The position numbers and the translations under genes are program-made. The notes below the pieces were generated by a model that saw only the letters and a program-made list of their open reading frames with translations, had not been told where the DNA came from and made no database searches. Positions 17,023-19,978 of a stretch of 41,927 bases of DNA are shown here, piece after piece. Each line of letters starts with the position of its first letter. Within the stretch, counting starts at the first letter, position 1. The stretch is from Sulfurimonadaceae bacterium (GTDB taxonomy: Bacteria > Campylobacterota > Campylobacteria > Campylobacterales > Sulfurimonadaceae): positions 5,217 through 47,143 of the forward strand of contig JADGEC010000012.1 in assembly GCA_016744575.1 (NCBI GenBank), given 5' to 3'.

Positions 17023-18573
17023 TTAATCCTCGTCCGTATCACCATCCATCTGCTTGACATCCACTTTTTTCGCAGACTTACTGGTAAAGTCTACTTCCAC
17101 ATCCCCTCTCTTTGGTCCTTCTATTGATGTACTCTCTGAGATAAGGTGGACATCACTCTGAGGATAAGGGATAGAGATACCCTCTGCATCAAAGCGCTCT
17201 TTGACACTTCGGGTCACTTCCCAATAGACTGTCCAGTAATCAGCTGTCTTTACCCATGGACGACAGATGAAGTTGACAGATGAATCTGCTAGTTCATGGA
17301 CTTTGATCGTCGGTTCAGGGGCTTGTAGCACCAGTGGATGCTCTCCAAGTACCTGTTCCATGACGTCTTGAGCCTGCGCTATATCATCATCATAGCCAAT
17401 ACCAAAGGTCAGATCCACACGTCGTTCATCACTATGGGTCACATTGGTGATGATATTGCCCCAGATGGAGTTGTTAGGGACGATCATCAGTCTATTGTCT
17501 GCTGTCATGATACTCGTCGACACTAGTGTCATCGACTGGACAGTCCCCATGATACCAGCGACATCTACGACATCGCCGATATCATAAGGACGGTAGAGCA
17601 TGATCATCAATCCGCTGGCAAAATTACTAAGAGTACCTTGCAAGGCAAATGCGACAACGAAACCTGCAGCACCGACCATAGCCATGATAGGTCCCACATT
17701 GACCTCGAGTGCTGCTAGTGCGACCAGAAGACCAATAAGCATCACCACTTTATGGATGATATTGGCGATGAAATCGTTTAACAGGTGTGAGTTACTTGGA
17801 GAGAGGGCAAGTGCTCTTTTGGCCCCTTTGCTTAAAAGCTTACTGACAAACATGGCAACTAAGATTATAACGATGAACTTGGCTATGTTAATAAGCCATT
17901 GAAGACCACCGTCTTCAGACATCACCCATGCAAAGAGACTTTTCCATGCAGTCTTTGCGTCGGTCACTTCTAAAGTGATGCCGCCTACTGTGTCGATATA
18001 GCGACGGTAAGGGAGTACCTCAGCCAGCTCTTTACCGTTCTCATCACTACCTATCTTCTCATTGATGTTTTTCAAGACTGTATCAAGACGATCGACACTT
18101 GCCTCTCTTGCTGCACGCTCTTTTAGCAGCGCTTCGAGAAGTGCTGCTTTTTCTTTTTCCACTTGTCCCATCTTCTGCTGGACTTCTTCTCTCTCTGCTG
18201 ATGCTGTCTGATTCGTATCGAGTGATCTCAAGGCATCTATCTCGGTATTCTTCTCTTCTACAGCGAGCTTGATCTCATAGACTTTTTTAGCGTCTTCTTT
18301 GAGAAGCTCCAACCAGCCGTCAGCCTCTACAAAAAGTTCATCACTGGTCATATGTCTGACCATCAGATGCAGCTTCTCCGGTGATACAGAAGGATCCTCA
18401 GTACTGATCGCAGAGGAGGTCTCTGAAGTCGATTCGGCGGCGACCAGAGGTAAGGTGAAGATAAATATCAGGCTAAACTGTAGAAGAAGAGAGGAAAAGA
18501 TCATCTGTCTTGTACTTTTAGTACTGACTTTCTCTGTGTTTGAAAGAGTTCGTCCATCTTTGTGAAAATACAT
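17023..18573 (-). CDS. MscS-family mechanosensitive ion channel
   Basis: Inner-membrane channel of the small-conductance family, expected to release solutes on osmotic down-shock. I chose the ATG at 18573 (516 residues) because AAAGAG lies about eight bases upstream. An in-frame GTG at 18606 would give 527 residues but has no ribosome site. A hydrophobic export segment near residues 24-45 leads to a periplasmic region with a charged coiled coil. Three membrane helices follow. The last is the pore helix with the G-A-A-G-F and A-L-Q-G-T-L pattern. The beta domain then shows I-G-D-V-V-D-V and T-A-D-N-R-L-M-I-V-P-N-N. The long periplasmic N-terminus makes it larger than E. coli MscS. It appears to be a single-gene unit; the structured repeat element lies upstream. 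Confidence 0.92.
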   Translation of the reverse strand: MYFHKDGRTLSNTEKVSTKSTRQMIFSSLLLQFSLIFIFTLPLVAAESTSETSSAISTEDPSVSPEKLHLMVRHMTSDELFVEADGWLELLKEDAKKVYEIKLAVEEKNTEIDALRSLDTNQTASAEREEVQQKMGQVEKEKAALLEALLKERAAREASVDRLDTVLKNINEKIGSDENGKELAEVLPYRRYIDTVGGITLEVTDAKTAWKSLFAWVMSEDGGLQWLINIAKFIVIILVAMFVSKLLSKGAKRALALSPSNSHLLNDFIANIIHKVVMLIGLLVALAALEVNVGPIMAMVGAAGFVVAFALQGTLSNFASGLMIMLYRPYDIGDVVDVAGIMGTVQSMTLVSTSIMTADNRLMIVPNNSIWGNIITNVTHSDERRVDLTFGIGYDDDIAQAQDVMEQVLGEHPLVLQAPEPTIKVHELADSSVNFICRPWVKTADYWTVYWEVTRSVKERFDAEGISIPYPQSDVHLISESTSIEGPKRGDVEVDFTSKSAKKVDVKQMDGDTDED

Positions 18574-18673
18574 ATAATGCTCTTTTGTCAGGGAGTTTCT
18601 CGACACTTATGGAAGAAAAAGTATCAAGGGATAGTTCTTGTGAATGATAACATATAAAATAGCAGTCTACGAC

Positions 18674-18994
18674 TAGCGGTCATGAAATACCAACCTCCGC
18701 TAAGGGGTACTTCTTTAAATAAGAGAGAAGCTATGAGCTACAAGGCAGGTCTTTGCACCCCAGGAGCACTTTGTCGCTTCGCTTGGGCGCAGACTAACTG
18801 GTTAATCCAAAATGATCTAACGAAGTAGATGATGGCTTATCTCTTACCCGAAGGGCGAACATAGTGTGTCATATTGCTTCGTTAGAGATCCTTGAAGCTA
18901 CCAGTAGCTCCTGCGGACTTCTGCCTTGCACTCTAACACACTATGCTCGTTTAAAGCAGCACTCCTTATCGGGGGTTGGTATAAGCTACCGCTA
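18674..18994. repeat. Structured non-coding element with imperfect inverted-repeat ends (MITE-like)
   Basis: About 321 bp. The left arm (18674-18725) and the reverse complement of the right arm (18994-18946) share TAGCGGT, TACCAACC, an 8/10 match around CCGNTAAGG, and CTTTAAA after short mismatched stretches. Inside are nested perfect pairs: TCTAACGAAG/CTTCGTTAGA (18816-18825, 18877-18886), CATAGTGTGT/ACACACTATG (18860-18869, 18936-18945), GTTAGAG/CTCTAAC (18881-18887, 18931-18937), and a tight hairpin AGCTAC/GTAGCT (18896-18909). There is no coding potential and no clear target-site duplication. It could be a transposase-less mobile element, a dispersed genomic repeat or a structured RNA. 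A search for other copies in the genome would decide. Confidence 0.6.
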
Positions 18995-19978
18995 TTTTCT
19001 AAACCGTATCATCTTGAAGCGCTCACCAAGCATATCGGGCATAATAAGCATCTTCGCTTTCTCAAGTTCTTGTTTGTAGATCTTCTCTTCGACGTTTTTC
19101 TGTAACATCTCCAGCAGGTCCAAAAGACCCATATTTATGAGGGCTGTCATCTGCGCTTTTAGTTCGATGAACTTGATGCCAGTCTCTTCAAAAGCATCCT
19201 TGACATGCGCAAAGGTGACATCATAGGTGATATCTGACTTTCCAAAAGCTTCACGGCGGCCCAGCTTCTCATCAAAGAGCGGCAGGACTTCATGTTCTTG
19301 ATAGACACGGATCGAAAAATCAGGCCGGGCTTGCATCTCACCATAATCAAAACTCATAAACTCAAATCTCTCCGCAGCTTTTGCCATCTCAGCAGCAAAA
19401 GCCTCATAACCTACCGCGATCTCACCCCGGTCCTTATGATATTTCTCAGCTTTGCCACTCACCCAGATATCATCGACATCAAACTCGATCTTATCACCCT
19501 CCATCCGTGCTGTCTTACCTTTGTAGAACAGTTCACATGGAAAAGCATCAAAGATCTCATTGGCGATAAAAAAGGCGTTTGGAACATCCATCTCAGCAAG
19601 TGAATGGTAGTGAATGATCTTGACAGCATCACCAAATGAGTCAAAGAGGTAAGCACGCTGCTGCTCCTGAAGCGCATCAAAGCGTTCGACGATGGAGAAC
19701 TGCAAGGTCTGCAGCAGCTCTGGACGAAGTGTATAGATGAACTCTATCATATCTGCCAGGAAATAGCCGTGATGGGCTCCTATCTCGCAGATGACACTCT
19801 CTTTAGTCAAAAAACCCTCATCTATTAGCGAGATGATATGTTTTCCTACCGTACCACCAAAGAACTTTGATGTACTGACCGCTGTATAGAAGTCACCGGT
19901 TTTCCCGATAGCCTTATAAGTACTATAGTAACCGTCGTCCCCATAGAGCCAGTCACCCATATAGTCACTAAACGTCAT
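18992..19978 (-). CDS. MidA/NDUFAF7-like SAM-dependent methyltransferase (DUF185)
   Basis: 328 residues. The SAM-binding motif is C-E65-I-G67-A-H-H-G71, and the family's later N-E-I-F-D-A-F-P-C-E-L-F segment is at about 139-150. The eukaryotic relative NDUFAF7 methylates an arginine of a complex I subunit; bacterial targets are not known to me, so the substrate is left open. It is the last gene of a long minus-strand operon, and its start overlaps the end of the TolC-like gene by 11 bp. Its TAG stop is formed by the first bases of the inverted-repeat element, so the natural C-terminus may have been changed by insertion. The protein ends M-I-R-F-R-K. Confidence 0.85.
   Translation of the reverse strand: MTFSDYMGDWLYGDDGYYSTYKAIGKTGDFYTAVSTSKFFGGTVGKHIISLIDEGFLTKESVICEIGAHHGYFLADMIEFIYTLRPELLQTLQFSIVERFDALQEQQRAYLFDSFGDAVKIIHYHSLAEMDVPNAFFIANEIFDAFPCELFYKGKTARMEGDKIEFDVDDIWVSGKAEKYHKDRGEIAVGYEAFAAEMAKAAERFEFMSFDYGEMQARPDFSIRVYQEHEVLPLFDEKLGRREAFGKSDITYDVTFAHVKDAFEETGIKFIELKAQMTALINMGLLDLLEMLQKNVEEKIYKQELEKAKMLIMPDMLGERFKMIRFRK

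Follow-up and report, generated by a model that had tools for sequence, protein, structure and literature searches.

A densely folded intergenic stretch at 18674-18994 (321 nt) of the window, the whole 41,927-nt stretch of DNA analysed here, raises the question of whether it is a mobile element, a structured nucleic acid or both. A preliminary description had taken it for a nested-palindrome element that ended in TAGCGGT, filled the whole gap between its neighbouring genes, and might be either a mobile element lacking its own transposase or an RNA or DNA element with a structural role in this lineage. The best explanation of the results below, with a probability of about 0.7, is a non-autonomous MITE-type element that is mobilised in trans and carries a folded payload common to several types of terminal inverted repeat (TIR).

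Limits of the element

The nested inverted repeats were confirmed: a pair with 33-nt arms (85%) and two pairs of 22 nt (82%) were present along with others, and the fold of the 321-nt stretch had z-scores of -6.4 on the plus strand and -7.9 on the minus strand, with none of 100 shuffled sequences equally stable. The limits, the outer ends and the filling of the gap as first described had to be revised. The gap between the mscS-type and Methyltransf_28 genes (18607-18991) is 385 bp long, of which the element takes 294 bp. A genome of the same genus (G001) lacked the element but had the two genes in the same order, at DNA identities of 89% and 83%; the orthologous locus after the methyltransferase stop reads AATAGCGGTATCACTTTTGCCGCT, a host hairpin without the element. 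Because that hairpin is intact in G001, TAGCGGT and ACCGCTA are the two halves of a host hairpin that the insertion has separated, and they were ruled out as the ends of the element; the TAG is the stop codon of the methyltransferase gene. The boundary TACC...GGTA, in turn, was the end point of two copies in the same genome (C6 and C4) and of a G001 copy (91%). The true limits are 18688-18981, a length of 294 bp. A TIR-like remnant lies about 70 bp away at the G001 locus, and therefore the region may have held an earlier copy. The features of the locus, with the evidence for each, were as follows.

17023-18606, minus strand: mscS-type channel gene (PF00924)
18674-18680, plus strand: host TAGCGGT, outside the element; one half of a terminator-like hairpin that the insertion interrupts (G001 orthologue)
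18685-18687, unstranded: AAA at the left target-site position, a degenerate form of TNA (sequence; flanks of sister copies and empty sites)
18688-18981, unstranded: whole element (MITE), TACCAACC...GGTTGGTA, 294 bp (ends of copies; G001 empty site)
18688-18719, plus strand: left TIR (inverted pair of 33 nt, 85%; same TIR in other copies of its own genome)
18718-18847, plus strand: hairpin arm 1, whose tip contains an additional nested part of about 33 nt (51.0 bits with covariance model R1, E 6.5e-10)
18741-18746, plus strand: CAAGGC half of the internal-loop motif, arm 1 (AAGGC invariant in 42 non-redundant arms)
18755-18791, plus strand: GCACCCCAGGAGCACTTTGTCGCTTCGCTTGGGCGC module in the tip of arm 1 (also elsewhere in the genome without arms)
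18819-18825, plus strand: AACGAAG half of the internal-loop motif, arm 1 (AACG and final AG invariant in the 42 arms)
18847-18855, unstranded: mini-hairpin CCCGAAGGG that links the two arms (sequence; most two-arm elements have a CCC-NNN-GGG linker)
18855-18951, minus strand: hairpin arm 2, with the correct fold on the minus strand (R1: 88.2 bits, E 7.1e-19)
18877-18883, minus strand: AACGAAG half-motif, arm 2 (sequence; 42-arm alignment)
18923-18928, minus strand: CAAGGC half-motif, arm 2 (sequence; 42-arm alignment)
18950-18981, minus strand: right TIR (same 33-nt inverted pair; copies of its own genome)
18982-18984, unstranded: right target-site position, TAA (sequence; flanks of sister copies and empty sites)
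18988-18994, plus strand: host ACCGCTA, the other half of the hairpin, overlapping the methyltransferase stop codon, outside the element (methyltransferase reading frame ends at 18992; G001)
18992-19978, minus strand: Methyltransf_28 gene (PF02636)

Copies, body plan and target sites

The genome that carries the window, a draft of 228 contigs, had three near-complete copies of the element together with fragments (C6 at 93%, C4 at 80%, several partial copies and short TIR-only palindromes). All copy and genome counts are lower bounds: a DNA search with the element gave at least 25 matches in this genome and the covariance model of the arms at least 23 at E values up to 1, while DNA-level matches were present in at least 11 of 60 genomes, its own included. 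Of 397 genomes from the phylum, at least 51 were positive with the arm model; they belong to the family of the window and to several further families within its order, so that attribution to a single lineage was too narrow. The pattern of the arm tip occurred at no fewer than 104 loci in named GTDB genomes, with labels that, among the matches listed, were mostly Sulfurimonas, Helicobacteraceae and other Campylobacterales. No match to a plasmid-borne repeat and no viral carriage of the arm tip was found. Orthologous sites were often empty in related species.

Full-size members had one plan, consisting of a TIR, a hairpin arm, a linker of CCC, loop and GGG, a second arm in inverted orientation and the closing TIR. 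Their length was about 265-300 bp overall, mostly 264-274 bp and about 294-300 bp for the type found in the window. At least ten unrelated TIR sequences bounded this plan: TACC(A), AAGTGCCTGAC, AAGTACCTATCC, AAGTAAGAG, GGGCACCTCTAAAAAC and TTGARMCCTCTGAACAA, further types with TTGCCATCCTAG, TTACCGCACCAA, GACTTCTTGCAA, TAACTGACC and TCACTACCAG, and others.

Three target-site patterns were distinguished. The TACC type of the window had a 3-bp TNA at both flanks and also in three empty sites; in the window copy itself the right flank is TAA and the left flank a degenerate AAA. The GGGCACC type had perfect 4-bp duplications of varied sequence in 17 of its 27 copies. The TTACCGCACC and GACTTCTTGC types had TA at both flanks in all 17 resolved full-size copies, and the AAGT type also had a TA target, with clean empty sites for two loci (L089 and L140); the TA pattern may reflect either a duplication of 2 bp or an insertion between T and A that duplicates nothing, and both fit the data. 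Since the target sites differ with the type of TIR, more than one type of transposase probably moved elements with the shared core.

The window element is short, without coding capacity and bounded by terminal inverted repeats, as MITEs are, and copies of the family are found at many separate sites, where the target is duplicated. The element moves between sites. The proposal of a transposase-less mobile element was borne out by these copies, by the empty sites and by the target duplications.

Several smaller or partial forms were also seen. Short copies of 48-55 bp consisted of TIRs only and had perfect 4-bp duplications. At five loci (L065, L062, L378, L379 and L350) there were TIR-to-TIR palindromes of about 31-70 bp, which are either minimal elements or internal deletions; two of these palindromes had perfect 4-bp duplications. 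Solitary GGGCACCTCTAAAAACCC ends of 17-18 bp, with no partner end, lay near genes at L250, L255, L258, L263 and L257:342 and are possibly footprints of excision or deletion. A TIR-bounded palindrome at L257:759-1158 (G070 C25), with CCCGGATTTTGCATTAG ends and TTAA on both sides, lies within the linker of a GGGCACC element and is a nested insertion. Finally, the 35-38 nt module GCACCCC..TTTGTCGCTTCGCTYGGGCGC in the tip of arm 1 (18755-18791 of the window) also occurred on its own in the same genome (G000 C210, C14, C11, C53 and C219; L011-L013, L015 and L020) and at L035 (G011), there apparently within a coding region. The module has the look of another dispersed repeat, smaller than the element.

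Autonomous partners

A viral contig yielded, by chance, an IS5-family element that has GGGCACCTCTAAAAACCC ends and the flanks CTCT...CTCT, and its transposase was used as a lead to insertion sequences in G071 and G226. In G071, MITEs and a 1252-bp IS5-family insertion sequence had the 16-bp end GGGCA(C/T)CTCTAAAAAC in common; the transposase of this insertion sequence scored 275 bits to NF033581. The complete genome G226 gave 12 transposase matches, most of them in IS5-family copies of about 1232 bp with the TIR TTGAACCCTCTGAACAA, which is also the TIR of another MITE type. Two sister TIR types therefore bound IS5-family insertion sequences of 1.23-1.25 kb with an intact transposase. The TIRs of the MITEs were about 33 bp long and those of the insertion sequences about 17 bp, a difference that weighs against the preferred explanation. 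The flanks of the TTGAACCC IS5 copies in G226 (L383-L397) showed no plain duplication: the left flank was mostly T or G and the right flank mostly A, G or C, as was likewise the case for AAGT-type MITEs.

For the TACC type of the window, no autonomous partner was found in its own draft genome, and no IS5_3-type transposase exceeded the cut-off in 22 genomes. Pairs of TTACCGCACC TIRs at the spacing of an insertion sequence were absent from a complete genome in which ten copies, nearly identical, were present, and a search of 26 genomes for such AAGTGCC pairs gave only single ends near ordinary genes (G131, G115, G126 and G124), beside which no transposase was recognised by eye. These negative results for the TACC and TTACCGCACC types also weigh against the preferred explanation. 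Model R1 had no match in ten IS5-bearing stretches at E values up to 10; derivation of the family by internal deletion of an IS5 element was rejected on this result.

Structure and strand of the arms

Covariation was analysed in 42 arms that were picked by sequence motif and thinned to less than about 85% similarity. Compensatory double changes were present at 33 of the 36 arm pairs, 96.8% of the cells were paired compared with 66.8% in shuffles, and the covariation score was 0.855 against 0.249 for shuffled and at most 0.166 for slid alignments; the shuffles keep shared ancestry, and the pairing and covariation figures are not probabilities. The compensatory base changes exceeded chance, as expected of a structured RNA, and the suggestion of a structured RNA or DNA element held in this respect. 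Only AAGGC and AACG-AG (AAGGC/AACGnAG), which lie in the internal loop, were invariant in the 42 arms. This motif was the only sequence common to the different TIR types, and R1 found arms in full-size MITEs of several of them. The arms are conserved by pairing and by the invariant motif. Rfam gave only chance-level matches for the window element and seven other loci, and a known Rfam family was rejected, there being no match at the gathering score.

The search of the host genome and its relatives, the covariance analysis and the comparison with relatives that the preliminary description had proposed thus returned multiple copies, compensatory changes and the empty G001 locus, and not the single copy without covariation or conserved boundaries that it had named as the contrary outcome.

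The two strands of an arm were not equivalent. In the thinned set, read on the strand of its own motif, the outer stem had 73 G.T against 5 A.C oppositions, and counted by arm the balance was 38 to 0; in the outer stem of 150 arms the ratio was 234 to 22. The two arms of the same elements, each in its own motif orientation, had G.T:A.C ratios of 75:12 and 61:2. A single strand that folds tolerates G.T, which becomes A.C on the complementary strand, and the asymmetry therefore marks the strand selected to fold. Mismatches in the TIRs were balanced (61:67), a weak control, since mirror symmetry predicts balance anyway. The best-folding strand reads 5'-CAAGGC...AACGMAG-3'. For arm 2 of the window, the predicted RNA fold was -45.4 kcal/mol in the sense and -31.8 kcal/mol in the antisense orientation. 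The asymmetry fits RNA and single-stranded DNA alike, and the high share of G.T leans toward RNA.

The orientation of the arms was plus, minus in all 58 two-arm elements, and therefore the first arm met on either strand is one that folds correctly. This strand-specific inverted doublet resembles REP doublets (PMC3116915) and would fit a mobility like that of REPINs, in which the inverted arms would be recognised strand-wise in single-stranded DNA by a tyrosine (HUH) transposase or similar and the TIRs would serve only as a closing stem. The arm motif as the sole sequence common across TIR types, and the several TIR types for which no autonomous partner was found, point the same way. We nevertheless consider this unlikely: the termini have clear target patterns of 2-4 bp, two TIR types match IS5 DDE elements, and the TIR-only copies of 48-55 bp have perfect 4-bp duplications, although these could also result from later internal deletion.

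An equally improbable account holds that these are ordinary MITEs with a passive, functionless hairpin interior. Template switching at imperfect palindromes can create compensatory changes without selection, repairing imperfect stems and so mimicking covariation (PMC8794818), and stable stems are common in MITE transcripts (PMC10969869). Template switching, however, should not yield an excess of G.T over A.C, here seen in both arms, or an invariant unpaired motif such as AAGGC/AACGnAG, nor does a passive interior predict one arm plan under unrelated TIRs. These features argue for a folded payload.

Genomic position of the copies

The window copy is intergenic, and none of 64 assessable copies lay inside a reading frame. 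Among 63 copies, 32 (51%) were between divergent genes compared with 28% expected from intergenic length (p = 1e-4), and 4 (6%) were between convergent genes compared with 20% expected (p = 0.004), reading frames being called for these counts by a simple, crude procedure; many copies were within 60 nt of a gene start. The bias could result from insertion preference or from selection. Retention of the copies by the host for control of neighbouring genes, as promoters, terminators or mRNA-processing sites, would account for these positions but is very unlikely, in that orthologous sites are often empty in related species and a preference for AT-rich promoter DNA would give the same bias.

A copy in 16S rRNA genes

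Intervening sequences (IVSs) in the rRNA genes of Campylobacter and Helicobacter have been known since the 1990s. In the complete genome G290, a relative of the window element was inserted in all three 16S rRNA genes (L320-L322). It is 270 bp long, with the TIR TCACTACCAG and one arm at 63.8 bits with R1.

L320:1534-1803: G290 element, inside the 16S rRNA gene at L320:218-2023

Compared with the Rfam model of 16S rRNA, a 7-nt loop near model position 210 was replaced by 272 nt. The site is in helix 10, where Campylobacter 16S intervening sequences occur. The three rRNA loci were near-identical over 2.5 kb, so a single insertion probably spread by gene conversion. Because it sits in 16S rRNA genes, at least this copy must be transcribed. 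At 19 further loci from other families there was no overlap with rRNA (0/19), and rRNA was rejected as a common location of the family.

Interpretation

In the preferred reading, that of a MITE-type element with a folded payload, transposases that recognise the TIRs would mobilise the members in trans, and the core formed by the arms would be a payload that now lies between the TIRs of several transposon types. Less certainly, the payload may work in single-stranded, folded form, most likely as RNA within transcripts that read through the element, and the mirror-image layout may ensure that, in both directions of insertion, an arm that folds correctly comes first. The interior of MITEs is usually taken as leftover sequence of an insertion sequence. 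One interior conserved by pairing and strand under at least ten TIR types in several families implies a selected function.

A wider reading is put forward tentatively: a selfish module of structured RNA or single-stranded DNA may spread inside MITEs from transposon families that are unrelated, its mirror-image form exposing a correct arm first from either side, with the rRNA IVSs of Campylobacter and Helicobacter as members. Complete genomes with near-identical copies and, for two types, IS5 partners provide a workable experimental system.

The family is apparently undescribed in Campylobacterota. In the portion of the literature retrieved on MITEs in Epsilonproteobacteria, only work on Thiomargarita surfaced.

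Comparison with known systems

The family resembles IS5-derived bacterial MITEs in that its members are small, gene-less, TIR-bounded, intergenic and multi-copy, with AT-rich target sites of 2-4 bp, and two of its TIR types are shared with IS5-family insertion sequences. It differs in its interior, which is not a remnant of these insertion sequences, is common to unrelated TIR types and is constrained in structure on one particular strand.

REPINs, which are REP doublets in inverted arrangement mobilised by RAYTs, likewise have two inverted hairpins, one per strand, with compensatory changes and an extragenic location (PMC3116915), and REPs of the GTAG/CGTC kind, 20-40 bp long, have been reported in Sulfurovum (PMC3733652). 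The arms described here are about 97 nt long rather than roughly 20-40 nt, and have a bulged invariant motif different from the GTAG foot. Moreover, REPINs are not known to make a target duplication, whereas this family has TIRs, 4-bp duplications and TNA and TA patterns, and the sister TIRs with an autonomous counterpart are of the IS5 type. By analogy, the family would work like REPINs in its strand logic and depart from them at its target sites.

ERIC and Correia elements are also short, imperfect, intergenic palindromes with a TA target, each with one type of TIR. Transcripts that carry them undergo RNase processing (PMC10969869). Unlike this family, they are not known to contain a core of two arms whose invariant internal loop recurs under several TIR types. 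The attC sites of integrons are strand-specific imperfect hairpins with conserved unpaired bases. The arms may work like them in this respect; they differ as inverted pairs between TIRs, and no cassette array was seen here.

A parallel to the G290 copy is found among rRNA IVSs, which lie inside rRNA genes and have paired ends, as this relative does and the window copy does not. Structured IVSs occur at helix 10 of the 16S rRNA in several Campylobacter species (PMC12453555), the position of the G290 insert, and the paired ends of that insert close internal stems, as do those of Helicobacter fennelliae IVSs, for which a 355-bp example has a 24-bp closing stem formed by complementary ends (PMC3335488). 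The IVSs of these genera, compared here by description and not by sequence, differ in being reported from rRNA genes only. A 122-bp part of the H. fennelliae IVS resembles an insert in the 23S rRNA of another species in opposite polarity (PMC3335488), which would be expected of a mirror-symmetric mobile element. The G290 copy hints at the origin of the unexplained inserts in Campylobacterota 16S genes, and by tying the family to the IVSs of Campylobacter and Helicobacter it makes their origin directly testable.
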